Assembly (NCBI RefSeq): GCF_002834145.1
Contig: NZ_PHNT01000011.1
Coordinates: 62,001 to 126,000, forward strand
Reading direction: 5' to 3'
DNA length: 64,000 nucleotides
Source of the DNA: Roseovarius salinarum
Lineage (GTDB): Bacteria; Pseudomonadota; Alphaproteobacteria; Rhodobacterales; Rhodobacteraceae
Part shown: in pieces, positions 27,854 to 33,085 of the stretch
How positions within the stretch are numbered: the first letter of the stretch is position 1
Layout: each line of letters begins with the position of its first letter
The notes under the pieces: generated by a model
The model's database searches: none
What the model was told of the DNA's origin: nothing
The model's input: the letters and a program-made list of their open reading frames with translations, nothing else
Position numbers and translations under genes: made by a program

Positions 27854-28222
27854 ATGACGCTGGCGTCTCTGGCGACGGCTCTTGCCGGGATCGGCGCGGC
27901 GGTCATGGCCGTGCTGGCGCTGCTGTTCTGGCGCGACCCGGCGCAGGCGATGCGGCTGACCACCCACAGGGCGGAGGCCCTGCCCCAGGTCATGGTGGAC
28001 CGCTACGCCGCCTTCGGCGTGCTGGCGGTGGGGGCCGCGCTTTCGGGCGACCCGGTCGTCATCGCGTGGCTGTTTTCCGCCTTCGCCCTGATGGGGTTCG
28101 CCGACGCCTGGATCTATGCCCGCGCCGGCTACGCGTTCGCCAAGCACCTCGCCGCGGGCGTCGCGGCGCTGGTCGTGGTCGCCGTCGCACTGGCCGGCCG
28201 GGCGGGGGAGGGGAACCTATGA
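27854..28222 (+). CDS. Hypothetical multi-helix membrane protein
   Basis: A 122-residue protein with three to four hydrophobic helices (about residues 5-28, 55-72, 78-95 and 102-118). ATG 27854 follows a GGGGGGC site; the open frame extends 34 residues upstream but without hydrophobic or conserved content. Its stop overlaps the start of the next lipoprotein gene (ATGA). I do not recognise the family. Its place between nuoD and nuoE matches the unidentified reading frames reported inside the R. capsulatus nuo locus. Confidence 0.7.
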   Translation: MTLASLATALAGIGAAVMAVLALLFWRDPAQAMRLTTHRAEALPQVMVDRYAAFGVLAVGAALSGDPVVIAWLFSAFALMGFADAWIYARAGYAFAKHLAAGVAALVVVAVALAGRAGEGNL

Positions 28223-28509
28223 CCCCGATGCGCCGCATCCCTTTGGCGGCACTGGGCCTGCCGGTGGTTCTGGCGGCCTGCGCCATGCCGCCGCGTGGTG
28301 TTTCCGACGCGGATCTGGCCGCCTACGCCTCCGCCGTTGCCAGCATCGGCTGCGAGATGCGTTACGAATCCGACTACCTGCCGGTCGAGCTGCAGACGGG
28401 GCTGAGCCGCGCGCAGGTCGTCGGCATCACCGAGTACCACCTTGCCGCGGGCAGCGCCGAGCCGCTGCCCGGTGGCGGGGCCAAACTGATCACGGGAGCC
28501 TGTGCCTGA
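28219..28509 (+). CDS. Small lipoprotein in the nuo operon
   Basis: A 96-residue lipoprotein: signal peptide with basic MTPMRRIP start and lipobox LAAC (lipid-modified Cys21). The mature part of about 75 residues is helical and has exactly two further cysteines, Cys45 and the penultimate Cys95, suited to one disulfide in the periplasm. ATG 28219 overlaps the preceding stop (ATGA); the stop is immediately followed by the nuoE start codon. The family is unknown to me. It is one of several exported two-cysteine proteins encoded in this operon. Confidence 0.7.
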   Translation: MTPMRRIPLAALGLPVVLAACAMPPRGVSDADLAAYASAVASIGCEMRYESDYLPVELQTGLSRAQVVGITEYHLAAGSAEPLPGGGAKLITGACA

Positions 28510-29613
28510 ATGCTACGCCGTCTTCACCCCGAGCAGCCTGACAGCTTCGCCTTCACGCCCGAGAACCAGGCCTGGGCCGAGGCGCAGATCACGAAATATC
28601 CGCCGGGCCGGCAGGCCAGCGCGATCATTCCGCTGCTGTGGCGCGCACAGGAGCAGGAGGGCTGGCTGTCGCGGCCGGCCATGGAATACGTGGCCGACAT
28701 GCTGGACATGCCCTACATCCGCGCGCTCGAGGTGGCGAGCTTCTACTTCATGTTCCAGCTTTCGCCGGTGGGCAGCGTCGCGCACGTCCAGATCTGCGGC
28801 ACCACCAGCTGCATGATCTGTGGCGCCGAGGACCTTGTTGGCGTGTGCCGCGAGAAGATCGCCGAAAATCCGCACGAACTCAGCCCCGACGGCAAGTTCA
28901 GCTGGGAAGGGGTCGAATGCCTGGGCGCCTGCGCCAACGCGCCCATGGCCCAGATCGGCAAGGACTACTACGAGGATCTGACCGCCGAGCGGCTGGGCGA
29001 GATCCTCGATCAGCTTGCCGCGGGCAAGGTGCCGACGCCGGGGCCGCAGAACGGGCGCTATGCCAGCGAGCCGCTGACCGGGCTGACGAGCCTCAAGGAA
29101 TTCGACAGCGGGCACACCAAGTACAATGCCAGTGTTCAGCGGGCCGAGGACGCCGGCGACACGATCAAGCGCATCGACGGCAGCGAGGCGCCGCTTTACA
29201 CGCCGTGGATCGACAAGGGCGCGCGGCACGATCCCGCGCCGCCCGACGTCGCGGTGCGCGAGACGCCCGCCGAGATCGGGGCGGCCGAGGCGCCGGCGGC
29301 GGAAACCGTCAAGGACAAGACCGAGCCCGCTGAAACCGGTGCGGCCGAGACGGAAACCGGCCGCAAGCCCGAGGTCCTGTCGGCCCCGCAGGCCGGGGGC
29401 GCCGATGATCTCAAGAAGATCAAGGGGGTGGGTCCGAAGCTGGAAAAGCTGCTCCACTCCATGGGGTTTTACCATTTCGACCAGATCGCCAAATGGACGG
29501 ACGAAGAGGTGCAATGGGTTGACGCCAACCTCGAAGGGTTCAAGGGACGCGTCAGCCGTGACGACTGGGTTGAACAAGCCAAGATGCTGGCCAGGGGCGA
29601 AACCGACGCCTAG
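28510..29613 (+). CDS. nuoE: NADH-quinone oxidoreductase subunit E with C-terminal helix-hairpin-helix domain
   Basis: Twenty-four-kilodalton subunit of the NADH dehydrogenase module. Residues 1 to about 175 are the thioredoxin-like NuoE core, with [2Fe-2S] ligands in CGTTSCM and CLGACANAP. The protein is 367 residues, roughly twice the usual length. An extension of about 125 residues, Ala/Glu/Pro-rich from about 240, leads to a helix-hairpin-helix domain at 299-363 ([17 protein letters not shown] at its start). The same domain type occurs as a tail on ribosomal protein L21 in alphaproteobacteria. The next gene repeats this domain. The extension is characteristic of Rhodobacterales NuoE; its role is not known to me. 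Confidence 0.95.
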
Positions 29614-29675
29614 GCCGGGCAAGGAGGGCGGCGGAAGCTGAAACGCGCGCCCATCGTAGTCAGGGAGGACTGACA

Positions 29676-30365
29676 ATGGCGAACGACAAAACCTGGAGTA
29701 CCTGCTCGATCACCAGCTGGGTCGTGGCGGCCGCGGCTGGCGTCGTGGCGATCGTGATGACGTGGAGCGCGCTGTCGGCGGTGGCGGCGCTGCTGATCGG
29801 CGTCGTGCTGGCCGTTCTGCTGGGCCTTGTGCTCACGCGGCTGTTCTGCACGGGCGGCGAGGCCGGTACAGGCGCACAGGCCGGCGCCGCGTCGACTGGC
29901 GCCGCGCGCCCGGTGCCCGAGGCGGAACCGGCACCTGCACCGAAGCCCGAGCCGGCACCGGAGCCCGAACCGGCGCCGGAGCCCGAAACTGCACCGGAAC
30001 CCCAACCGGCGCCGAAGCCCGAGCCGGCGCCGCAATCGCCGGCCGCCCGACAGGCGCCGGCAGAGCCGACCGAGGGCAGCCGGCCCGAGACGTTGTCGGC
30101 ACCGCGCGGTGGACAGCCCGACGACCTGAAACAGATCAAGGGCGTGGGACCGAAACTTGAAGAAGCCCTCAACGAGCTGGGGATTTATCATTTCGACCAG
30201 ATCGCCAACTGGTCCGAGGCCGAGGTGGCCTGGGCCGACGAGAACCTCGTGGGCTTCAAGGGCCGGGTGAGCCGCGACGACTGGGTGTCGCAGGCGAAGA
30301 CCCTCGCGGCCGGTGGCGATACGGAATTTTCCAAGCGCGTCGAGGATGGCGACGTTTACGAGTGA
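29676..30365 (+). CDS. Membrane-anchored protein with Pro/Glu repeats and helix-hairpin-helix domain
   Basis: A 229-residue protein in three parts. Two adjacent transmembrane helices (about residues 8-55) are followed by a proline-rich stalk with repeated PEPAPEPEPAP-type units (about 75-125) and a helix-hairpin-helix domain at 149-214. By hand alignment the last domain matches the NuoE tail at about 47 of 66 positions, and the short lead-in PExLSAP is shared too. The stalk would hold the domain away from the membrane on the cytoplasmic side if topology is as drawn. It overlaps the next gene by ATGA. Function unknown. Confidence 0.75.
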   Translation: MANDKTWSTCSITSWVVAAAAGVVAIVMTWSALSAVAALLIGVVLAVLLGLVLTRLFCTGGEAGTGAQAGAASTGAARPVPEAEPAPAPKPEPAPEPEPAPEPETAPEPQPAPKPEPAPQSPAARQAPAEPTEGSRPETLSAPRGGQPDDLKQIKGVGPKLEEALNELGIYHFDQIANWSEAEVAWADENLVGFKGRVSRDDWVSQAKTLAAGGDTEFSKRVEDGDVYE

Positions 30366-30613
30366 CGAGGAGGGTCGCGGAGTTGGCACCGCACGACACG
30401 CAGGAGCGGCACCTCGCCCGCAAGAGCCGCACAGTCGCGATCGTGATCGCGGCGGCCACGATACTGTGGCTCGGGGTTCAGTGGCTTGGCGCCGCGATGG
30501 GCTGGCCCGCGCGGTTCGTGTTCCTTGCCGATTTCGCGGCCATCGCCGCTTTCGTCTGGGCGCTTGTGGTGATCCATCAAATCTGGCGTGCGCGCCGGGA
30601 CAATCGGGGGTAG
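30362..30613 (+). CDS. DUF5337-like two-helix membrane protein
   Basis: An 83-residue protein with a charged N-terminus (about 25 residues) and two transmembrane helices (about 28-48 and 53-73), ending in a basic RARRDNRG tail. I believe it belongs to DUF5337, a small family seen in Rhodobacterales nuo operons, but cannot check this. It overlaps the previous stop (ATGA) and ends just before nuoF. Its conserved position suggests a complex I accessory or assembly role. Confidence 0.7.
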
Positions 30614-30620
30614 CATCCGA

Positions 30621-31916
30621 ATGCTGAAAGACCAGGACCGCATCTTCACCAACCTCTACGGGATGCACGACCGTACCCTGAAGGGCGCCATGGCGCGGGG
30701 CCACTGGGACAACACGGCGAAGATCCTGCAGAACGGGCGCGACTGGATCGTCGAACAGATGAAGGCCAGCGGCCTGCGCGGCCGCGGCGGCGCGGGCTTT
30801 CCCACCGGGTTGAAGTGGTCCTTCATGCCCAAGGAAAGCGACGGGCGCCCCGCCTACCTCGTGGTCAACGCCGACGAGTCCGAGCCGGGAACCTGCAAGG
30901 ACCGCGAGATCATGCGCCACGATCCGCACACGCTGATCGAAGGCTGCCTGATCGCGAGCTTCGCGATGAACGCGCACGTCGCCTACATCTACATCCGCGG
31001 CGAATACATCCGCGAGCGCGAGGCGCTGCAGGCGGCGATCGACGAGGCATACGAGGCCGGGCTGATCGGGCGCAATGCCTGCAACTCGGGCTTCGACTTC
31101 GACGTCTACCTGCACCACGGCGCCGGCGCCTACATCTGCGGCGAGGAAACCGCGCTTCTGGAAAGCCTCGAGGGCAAGAAGGGCATGCCGCGGATGAAGC
31201 CGCCGTTCCCGGCGATGGCGGGTGTCTACGGTTGCCCCACGACGGTCAACAACGTCGAATCCATCGCGGTGGTGCCGACCATACTGCGCCGCGGGCCGGA
31301 GTGGTTCGCGGGGTTCGGGCGCCCCAACAACACGGGCACCAAGATCTTCGCGGTTTCGGGGCACGTGAACACGCCCTGCGTGGTGGAAGAGGAGATGTCG
31401 ATTTCCTTCGAGGAGCTGATCGACCGGCACTGCGGCGGCGTGCGCGGGGGCTGGGACAACCTCAAGGCGGTGATCCCGGGCGGCTCTTCCGTGCCCTGCG
31501 TCCGCGGCGAGAACATGCGCGACGCGCTGATGGATTTCGACGCGCTGGCCGAGAAGAAGTCGAGCCTCGGCACGGCGGCGGTCATCGTGATGGACAAGGA
31601 TACCGACATCATCAAGGCGATCTGGCGGCTGGCCAAGTTCTACAAGCACGAAAGCTGTGGCCAGTGCACCCCTTGCCGCGAGGGGTCGGGCTGGATGATG
31701 CGCGTGATGGAGCGGCTCGTGAAGGGGGACGCGGACCCCGAGGAGATCGACATGCTCTTCGACGTCTCCAAACAGGTCGAGGGCCACACGATCTGTGCAC
31801 TGGGCGACGCGGCGGCCTGGCCCATCCAGGGGCTGATCCGCAACTTCCGCGACGAGATCGAGGACCGCATCAGGGCCAGGCGCGCCGGCCGCGTCGGCGC
31901 CGTGGCCGCGGAATAG
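30621..31916 (+). CDS. nuoF: NADH-quinone oxidoreductase subunit F
   Basis: Fifty-one-kilodalton subunit that binds NADH, FMN and cluster N3. [16 protein letters not shown] (about residues 52-67) binds [25 protein letters not shown] continues the FMN site, and the [4Fe-4S] ligands are in [12 protein letters not shown] plus a downstream cysteine in TICALGD. The start at 30621 gives [14 protein letters not shown], the family N-terminus, and 431 residues. Three exported small proteins follow before nuoG. Confidence 0.97.
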
Positions 31917-31929
31917 GAAAGGGCAGGGC

Positions 31930-32265
31930 ATGAAACACGCGATCGCAATCCTGACACTGGCTGCCGCGGCATCCACCGCCGCCGCGCCGGCGCTGGCCGA
32001 GACGTTGCGCGGCGAGACCTACACCGGCGCGGTGACCGAGCGTCTGATCGAGGAACAGCCCGCCGATGCGCGGATCGCCCAGGTGTTCGTGACGGTCACC
32101 CGCAACGACCGCGGCGCCATCGCCGAGGGTGCGCTGGAGCGGGCGGCCGCGTTCGCCGCCGGGGCGGGTTGCCGCGACGGCGACGTGCTGACGATGATCC
32201 GCGCCGCGCGCGAGGCGGCGCAGGTTGACTTCGAATTGCTTTGCCGCAGGCCGGAGGCCCAGTGA
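31930..32265 (+). CDS. Secreted hypothetical protein in the nuo operon
   Basis: A 111-residue protein with a Sec signal peptide (MKHAIAILTLAAAASTAAAPALA, cleaved after ALA). The mature domain of about 88 residues has a strand (QVFVTVTRND), a helix (ALERAAAFAAGAG) and exactly two cysteines, in AGCRD and LLCRR. Its layout resembles the other exported proteins flanking nuoG. Not recognised at family level. Its stop overlaps a GTG start of the next lipoprotein gene. Confidence 0.65.
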   Translation: MKHAIAILTLAAAASTAAAPALAETLRGETYTGAVTERLIEEQPADARIAQVFVTVTRNDRGAIAEGALERAAAFAAGAGCRDGDVLTMIRAAREAAQVDFELLCRRPEAQ

Positions 32266-32648
32266 CGAAGATTGGAGTGGATATCGTGACAGGCGTTCGC
32301 CGGCACAGCGCGCGCGCGGCGGCGCTGATCGCGTTGCCGGCGCTTCTGGGCGGCTGTGGCAACATGACCGAGTTCAGCGACCGGATGTATTTCGACGGGA
32401 ACTATTATCCGGCCAAGGTCAAGCACGATCGCGAGAACCGGCGCATCTTCACGCTGACCGTGCGGCGTATCGGGCAGGGCATCGAGGGCGCGCGCGAGGC
32501 GGCCCGCTACGAGGGCACCCGCTATTGCGTGGACGAATACGGCACGTCCGAGATCGCCTGGGTGGTCGCCCCCGACGCGCCGTTGGAGGAGCTGCCGATC
32601 AGCGACGGCAAGATGGTGTTGCAAGGAAAGTGTGAACGGTGGGATTGA
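32262..32648 (+). CDS. Small lipoprotein in the nuo operon
   Basis: A lipoprotein of up to 128 residues. Lipobox ALLGGC lies in a hydrophobic stretch following RRHSARAAALIALP. The mature domain contains a strand (RRIFTLTVRRIG), a helix (IEGAREAARYEG) and two cysteines (RYCVDEYG and QGKCERWD). The start is unsettled: GTG 32262 overlaps the previous stop with GGAGG four bases before it, while GTG 32286 has GGAG eight bases before it and gives a cleaner signal peptide. The stop overlaps the next start (TGATG). Confidence 0.65.
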   Translation: MTKIGVDIVTGVRRHSARAAALIALPALLGGCGNMTEFSDRMYFDGNYYPAKVKHDRENRRIFTLTVRRIGQGIEGAREAARYEGTRYCVDEYGTSEIAWVVAPDAPLEELPISDGKMVLQGKCERWD

Positions 32649-33085
32649 TGGCGGTGCATAAGGCGTCGGCGACGCGGGCCGGGCGGCTGGCCGCGGCGGC
32701 GCTGGCGTGTGCGCTGATTGCCGCACCGGCGGCGCAGGCCGGCAAGCCGGGCCTCGCGCAGGAGGACGACATCAATGCCGGGCTGCTGGCCGTGGGCATC
32801 GCCGACGAGATCCGCGACCACTGCCCGACGATAAGCGGCCGCGTGTTCAAGGCGCTGTTCTACATGAACGGGCTCAAGCGGATGGCACGTGAGCGCGGCT
32901 ACACCGACGACGAGATCGACGCCTACGTGGACAGTGATGCCGAAAAGGCGCGGATGCGCGAAAAGGGCGAGGCCTATCTCGCCCGGCACGGCGTGGACCG
33001 CGACACCCCCGAAACATTCTGCGATCTGGGCCGGGCGGAAATCGCGCGCGGCAGCCGGATCGGATCATTTCTCAGAGCAAGGTGA
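32648..33085 (+). CDS. DUF5333-like exported protein
   Basis: A 145-residue protein with an N-terminal signal peptide (hydrophobic core about residues 14-30, AQA cleavage site). The helical domain contains REIRDHC-like and [12 protein letters not shown] segments, each carrying one cysteine, and [12 protein letters not shown] believe this is DUF5333, a Rhodobacterales family found next to nuoG, but cannot confirm. Start 32648 is chosen because it overlaps the previous stop (TGATG). The two cysteines would allow one periplasmic disulfide. Confidence 0.7.

Follow-up and report, generated by a model that had tools for sequence, protein, structure and literature searches.

Protein-O of Dinoroseobacter shibae, the closest described relative of the protein discussed here, was found by cryo-EM as a subunit of the photosynthetic core complex RC-LH1 (PDB 8yy9, 8yz2, 9jpb and 9km0; ABV93056.1). 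According to that report (PMC12079452), protein-O has a two-helix hairpin that sits between LH1 and the reaction centre, and a disulfide on the cytoplasmic side joins Cys10 to Cys59, a feature termed unique among reaction centres; the traced residues comprise Met8–Cys59 only. The report places its gene between nuoE and nuoF and states the likeness of its C-terminal domain to that of NuoE, and the bare observation of a NuoE-like tail encoded at the nuoE–nuoF location is thus already in print for D. shibae. Protein-U/Y of the Rhodobacter sphaeroides RC-LH1 possesses a similar transmembrane hairpin in a similar place, with a sequence that PMC12079452 calls quite distinct. For complex I of P. denitrificans, the passages of PMC11522691 covered here count 17 subunits as known and add PIMT as newly identified; subunit E exceeds its mammalian counterpart by only 29 residues in this account, and no such tail on it is reported.

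The locus described here lies in a window, the whole stretch of DNA that was analysed, of 64,000 nucleotides from Roseovarius salinarum; the parts described from nuoE to nuoF are on the forward strand. The gene nuoE (28510–29613) encodes subunit E of the NADH-quinone oxidoreductase, 367 residues long with its C-terminal tail (PF01257, E 9e-52), and is an ordinary member of NF009040/PRK12373, the NuoE proteins with a C-terminal extension, which it matches over its full length, tail included, at 581 bits (curated cut-off 514 bits). Alignment with the 239-residue subunit E of PDB 8qby, which we take to be P. denitrificans complex I and in which NuoE is without a tail, covers residues 1–234 only. 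Past the end of this match there follow an acidic, alanine-rich linker (residues 236–298; 29215–29403), so that approximately 64 residues separate residue 234 from the tail, and then a helix-hairpin-helix (HHH) tail domain (residues 299–363; 29404–29598). The next gene (29676–30365) occupies the nuoE–nuoF interval and encodes 229 residues: a transmembrane hairpin (29703–29849) flanked by Cys10 and Cys58, a Pro/Glu stalk (residues 59–148; 29850–30119) with the C-terminal end RPETLSAPRGGQP, a second HHH tail domain (residues 149–213; 30120–30314), and a short C-terminal piece (30315–30362), to which the ends of D. shibae protein-O and of NuoE tails in other families are similar. The two cysteines are the counterparts of the disulfide-forming pair described in PMC12079452, and approximately 90 residues of sequence span the distance from the second helix to the domain. 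Downstream lie a gene for a small DUF5337 membrane protein (30362–30613; PF17272, E 6e-32), whose start overlaps the stop codon of the preceding gene, and nuoF (30588–31916, with the start codon as in the open reading frame list). Small genes are interleaved among the nuo genes at 28219–28509, 30362–30613, 31930–32265, 32241–32648 and 32639–33085; they include DUF5337 and DUF5333, and others look lipoprotein-like or secreted by eye.

The tail domains of NuoE and of its neighbour are the same domain, identical at 47 of 65 positions (47 of 66 in the count of the preliminary description), and BLASTP of domain plus linker aligned 57 identical residues in 85 (E 1e-37). The common linker PExLSAP, read as KPEVLSAP in NuoE and RPETLSAP in the neighbour, was borne out as well, as were the two hydrophobic helices and Pro/Glu-rich stalk of the neighbour and the occurrence of the same tail on ribosomal protein L21; a search of the genome with its own NuoE tail matched three proteins at E ≤ 1: NuoE itself, the neighbour and, at its end, L21. 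Against the NCBI models for alphaproteobacterial L21 (NF008915/NF008916), S2 (NF008966) and phasin PhaH (NF045508), where the same domain ends a flexible linker, both tails align with the C-terminal parts, with scores under the whole-protein cut-offs. L21 tails are approximately 52–54% identical to those of NuoE and protein-O; for S2 and PhaH the likeness is the model match alone.

When the domain profile was searched against all PDB sequences, two very strong matches were found. One is 8yy9 chain O (E 4e-42), whose annotation reads “Reaction center protein O chain”; the other, 9wqv chain a (E 6e-40), is annotated “NADH:ubiquinone oxidoreductase 41 kd complex i subunit”. With the whole neighbour as query, phmmer aligned 8yy9 chain O over residues 2–228 (E 3e-49). 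A further protein-O relative is 9lts chain A, “Protein LRC”, of 76 residues; 9wqv and 9lts are both photosynthetic complexes, since each holds reaction-centre cytochrome and M chains. The nuoE neighbour of one genome in our sample, G035, is identical to 8yy9 chain O at 239 of 239 residues. A hairpin profile grown from the window joined 70 of 73 transmembrane hairpins, the D. shibae-identical copy among them, and 0 shuffled ones; at the level of sequence, the transmembrane hairpins of the tailed neighbours form one family. We regard it as almost certain that the window neighbour belongs to the protein-O family of two-helix membrane proteins. It has in common with D. shibae protein-O a pair of transmembrane helices, the cysteines Cys10 and Cys58/59, a linker that is long and flexible, an HHH domain at the C-terminus with a TEFSKRV end, and the nuoE–nuoF location, and differs from it in being without an RKGxW peptide, discussed below, and in coming from a genome in which no reaction centre was found. 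The window NuoE is without the TEFSKRV end present on some other tailed NuoE. The preliminary description, made from sequence alone, was thus right about the sharing of the domain and missed the relation of the neighbour to protein-O and RC-LH1.

The distribution of both tails was tabulated for 114 of 120 same-family genomes, each with nuoE and nuoF on one contig. Left out were G022 and G102, whose NuoE lies at a contig end, G032 and G119, in which no NuoE reached the cut-off, and L042 and L108, whose contigs have no nuoF; G015 was counted as PufX-positive with a PufX match under the curated cut-off. Membrane and soluble copies were classed by a simple hydropathy rule, which gave 75 membrane copies in 73 loci, two loci having two.

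Protein-O relatives occur in RC-LH1 structures, as a purely photosynthetic protein would, acting in RC-LH1 assembly or as a quinone channel as proposed for D. shibae, its place in the nuo operon being incidental. The window's genome argues against this reading: it is 99.96% complete and holds no match to the reaction-centre family PF00124, and its protein-O homologue is therefore not an RC-LH1 subunit. PF00124 matches were found in 47 of the 120 genera. Of the 70 non-phototrophs, 40 have a tailed neighbour; the corresponding counts are 16 of 21 for PufX-negative phototrophs and 17 of 23 for PufX-positive phototrophs. Photosynthesis is therefore not its sole role, and a link to the PufX-type photosystem was dropped on the latter two counts. 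Phototrophy and the tailed neighbour were not significantly associated in these loci (Fisher p 0.07; Pagel-type p 0.20). A cysteine pair, defined as two Cys 40–66 residues apart and before the domain, is found in 52 of 73 tailed neighbours; because it is so widely kept in non-phototrophs (33 of 40, next to 13 of 16 PufX-negative and 6 of 17 PufX-positive neighbours), the hairpin disulfide is probably a photosystem-independent feature of the family. PufX-positive protein-O (for example in L084, L091 and L096) is often without the pair, which is kept in 6 of 17 versus 46 of 56 others (Fisher p 0.0005, uncorrected for phylogeny). A role in photosynthesis only is hardly credible, and is already contradicted by the absent PF00124 match and the 40 non-phototroph genera, unless the loss of photosynthesis is very recent in every one of them.

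Both tails are present in 64 of the 114 loci, the NuoE tail only in 27, the neighbour tail only in 9 and neither in 14 (Fisher p 0.0075). In the same order, the counts are 38, 24, 2 and 6 for non-phototrophs, 14, 2, 2 and 3 for PufX-negative phototrophs, and 12, 1, 5 and 5 for PufX-positive phototrophs; seven of the nine neighbour-only loci are from phototrophs. The association beyond phylogeny is weak: on a NuoE+NuoF tree, approximately 2.6 independent pairs changed the same way versus 1.3 the opposite way (median sign-test p 1), and a Pagel-type model favoured dependent evolution of the two tails only at p 0.03. The NuoE tail is missing in 15 of 44 phototrophs versus 8 of 70 non-phototrophs (Pagel-type p 0.009; independent pairs not significant). 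Among 80 named loci 63 have both tails, a sample chosen by the domain itself and hence no test.

These counts bear on the tether or docking pair put forward in the preliminary description. In its strict form, the neighbour would be an anchor of complex I whose tail docks on the NuoE tail and holds the NADH module. The adjacency of the genes, the common compartment and the raw co-occurrence agree with such an anchor, as does the rarity with which non-phototrophs with a tailed neighbour miss the NuoE tail (2 of 40). However, 36 of the 114 loci have only one tail, and the combination named beforehand as speaking against a pair, a tail-less NuoE beside a tailed neighbour, was encountered in nine; a strictly obligate pair was rejected on these counts as unlikely. 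Tailed NuoE of other families without an HHH neighbour, and a solved complex I with a tail-less NuoE, likewise oppose it. We consider an obligate tether very unlikely.

Within genomes, the two tails resemble each other more than they resemble their counterparts in the nearest genomes. The identity between the NuoE and neighbour tails is 0.704 in the same genome (n = 64), whereas comparison with the three nearest genomes gives 0.672 (Wilcoxon p 0.0007; with L080 removed, p 0.0012), and the observed own-genome pairing value was reached in 0 of 5000 permutations; orthologous tails in the three nearest genomes are 0.695 and 0.702 identical, level with the own-pair value. The L21 tail did not follow this behaviour: own and cross identities are 0.541 and 0.545 against the NuoE tail (n = 28), and 0.520 and 0.518 against the neighbour tail (n = 22), whereas in the same comparison set the NuoE–neighbour pair gave 0.724 own versus 0.690 cross (4 of 5000 permutations; n = 21). 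This set used 29 of 30 fetched loci and the L21s most like the window's. The NuoE and neighbour tails thus change together within genomes, the L21 tail standing apart, and a partner in common with the L21 tail is unsupported, there being no own-genome tie. The two tail classes are nevertheless incompletely merged and keep some identity of their own; the domain tree requires 41 NuoE/neighbour label changes versus 55 (48–62) with shuffled labels. Co-variation by column exceeded z = 3 in 5 of 64 columns. Whether a domain is of the long or the short variant shows no correspondence between the two copies (54 pairs: 36 long–long, 15 mixed, two short–short and one unclassed).

A second proposal in the preliminary description was that both tails bind a common third partner such as nucleic acid or a ribosome. 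Many HHH domains bind DNA or RNA, and the KGVGPK hairpin of the tail is presumably of HHH type. On this proposal, the tails of NuoE, protein-O, L21 and S2 would serve the translation or insertion of membrane complexes close to the membrane; the presence of this tail on L21 and in the model for S2 is in keeping with it, as are the weaker matches of the PDB-wide tail profile search, ribosomal eL32 (E 5e-5) and RadA (E 0.015). The eL32 match is PDB 9l94 chain Q, and HHH extensions on ribosomal proteins may recur. In Pfam, the tails reached HHH_5 only below threshold (16.7 and 20.3 bits versus a cut-off of 27). An AlphaFold2 model of the NuoE tail, built from an alignment of the window plus 33 rows from the named loci, comprises five helices at a mean pLDDT of 85.6; a Foldseek search of the PDB with it returned nothing at E ≤ 0.001. 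The non-significant matches are headed by a trypanosome mitoribosome assembly chain (E 0.31), a point for the ribosome proposal; an EphB2 SAM domain (E 0.45) and the acidic repeat AR2 of NusA (TM 0.59/0.72, E 0.58) come next. The crystal structure of AR2 includes a protein partner, SuhB. By fold, AR2 belongs to the best-matching short domains of solved structure, at an E value that is non-significant, and the tail profile matches it weakly (E 0.77–0.97); membership is not claimed. The median net charge is −2 for NuoE tails and −1 for neighbour tails (window, −1 and −5, respectively). The mostly neutral-to-acidic charge, an indirect kind of evidence, together with this list of folds leans towards protein binding. 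Given also that the tails do not track the L21 tail of their own genome, nucleic-acid or ribosome binding found little support and is quite unlikely.

The concerted change of the tails could also reflect copying without any joint role. Under this main rival to a shared function, the NuoE tail has a function of its own and the neighbour tail is overwritten now and then by gene conversion, as the two domains are only approximately 0.7 kb apart; their likeness is upheld by recombination and the same fold constraint. Copying of this kind is directly visible in L080, where a tract of approximately 300 nucleotides (linker end, domain and C-terminus) is near-identical between the two genes, 57 of 58 shared-residue codons being identical, and the flanks are unrelated; the tract is a fresh copy, and part of the concerted change is accordingly DNA copying. 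L022, L031 and L080 form own-genome sister pairs on the domain tree. Over all own pairs, 1575 of 2737 shared codons are identical versus 1447 expected from codon usage, a slight excess that leaves room for older copying. Single-tailed loci are also in keeping with conversion, and the Pagel-type model sets gain of the NuoE tail almost solely where the neighbour is tailed. In the window itself 24 of 44 shared codons are identical versus 27.7 expected; no recent copy is visible there, as shared codons are at chance level, and any conversion must be old, yet 47 of 65 residues are still kept. Conversion would, moreover, have to accommodate a second common element of different sequence. On balance, we hold copying without a joint role to be less likely than not, and close behind the model given below.

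This second element is the conserved peptide VKPSxxLPGxxELAxRKGxWxYxG, in short RKGxW, which ends several neighbours that are without the HHH domain. Of 116 loci, 29 have it: 21 on the neighbour, seven on both proteins and one on NuoE alone. In many of these 29 it precedes an HHH domain; in L036, a tail-less NuoE ends in it too. NuoE and the neighbour thus hold a second tail element in common in seven loci. A whole-genome search returned 41 places in 30 of 120 genera, two of them outside the nuoE/neighbour pair. In G035 (L128, 1211–2218), the peptide stands before an ABC transporter ATPase domain; a match in G004 was dropped, as it looks like a GntR-type regulator by eye. A DxDxDG segment, which we take to be a motif resembling a calcium-binding loop, lies at most 60 residues before the tail in 14 of 75 membrane neighbours (for example in L014, L015 and L043) and in 1 of 93 NuoE tails. 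Because the tails co-evolve, the L21 tail stands apart and a second peptide is common to both proteins in some genomes, a functional link between the copies is plausible; this is the part of the earlier tether and docking idea that finds support, and the obligate pair is the part that is unlikely.

Across the class, a draw of 190 genomes gave 18 with the domain at E ≤ 1e-6, three of these in the window's own family. Among the fetched loci from outside the family, four have the domain on NuoE; a nuoF match comes next in all four, no HHH neighbour was found in any, and three of the four tails have the TEFSKRV end. As tailed NuoE in these other families are without an HHH neighbour, the domain probably originated on NuoE and was passed on to the membrane protein. 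Other arrangements were seen in the fetched loci. In 8 of 116 loci (L014, L015, L027, L035, L043, L047, L053 and L112), a third gene with an HHH tail, and without a transmembrane helix, follows the membrane neighbour and precedes nuoF, several being phasin-like by eye; that of L014 matches the PhaH model NF045508 weakly (74.9 bits versus a cut-off of 250) and largely via the tail. Membrane proteins with two HHH domains in tandem occur in another alphaproteobacterial family (L271/L284, 177–1697; L268, 790–1875), and HHH tails are also present on a DUF2189 membrane protein (L130, 710–2041) and, by eye, a protein with one transmembrane helix and a coiled-coil-like region (L133, 1432–2028). In L280 (550–2465; G141), NuoE and the neighbour have L21-like tails that are mutually identical at approximately 56 of 64 positions by eye. 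A close tail copy amid alphaproteobacterial titles in L163, a contig filed as a Hydrogenophaga MAG, is probably a binning error.

Taken together, a model for the two tails emerges, which we put forward tentatively and at somewhat short of an even chance: the NuoE and protein-O tails would be two copies of one cytoplasmic sticker, binding each other or one common partner. The tail of NuoE is cytoplasmic by the place of NuoE in complex I. That of protein-O is taken to be cytoplasmic because the disulfide at the ends of the hairpin is (PMC12079452). The NuoE tail would be the older, the membrane protein having later taken a copy; both domains would then be held in the cytoplasm on long flexible linkers as matching stickers, bind each other or one common protein, and so keep complex I near the membrane assembly that holds protein-O. 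This assembly would be RC-LH1 in phototrophs, and another one in non-phototrophs such as the window's bacterium. Against matching stickers stand the 27 NuoE-only and nine neighbour-only loci, the weak co-occurrence beyond phylogeny (median sign-test p 1; Pagel-type p 0.03), the separate identity that the two copies keep on the domain tree (41 versus 55 label changes), the unpaired long and short variants, and the tail-less NuoE of 8qby, presumably the P. denitrificans enzyme. Copying between tandem genes could by itself explain the likeness (1575 versus 1447 of 2737 codons). That the tails bind, what they bind and to what purpose are accordingly worded here as suggestions. In the literature covered, with subscription journals largely outside its reach, no paper on the function of the tail was found, PMC12079452 being the one relevant report; new here are the missing reaction-centre match in the window's genome, the distribution in non-phototrophs, the concerted change of the tails, the L080 copy, the second peptide and the tailed NuoE of other families.

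Read family-wide, the model would have complex I joined to another membrane energy complex via matched tails, which we consider unlikely as a whole. If true, phototrophs would possess a loose assembly of complex I and RC-LH1, which could serve quinol channelling or reverse electron flow to NAD; the protein-O of non-phototrophs would tie complex I to another partner, and the role in the photosystem would have come later by recruitment. Structures would miss such links, as only Met8–Cys59 of protein-O has been traced (PMC12079452). D. shibae is a natural test organism, since G035, the genome with the identical protein-O, has a tail as well as the second peptide on NuoE and on protein-O alike. 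A subunit known from photosystem structures is a member of a nuo-operon family that is present in many non-photosynthetic genera as well, and the same tail is found on the NADH module of complex I; whether dedicated tails hold respiratory and photosynthetic complexes together is thereby made a testable question.
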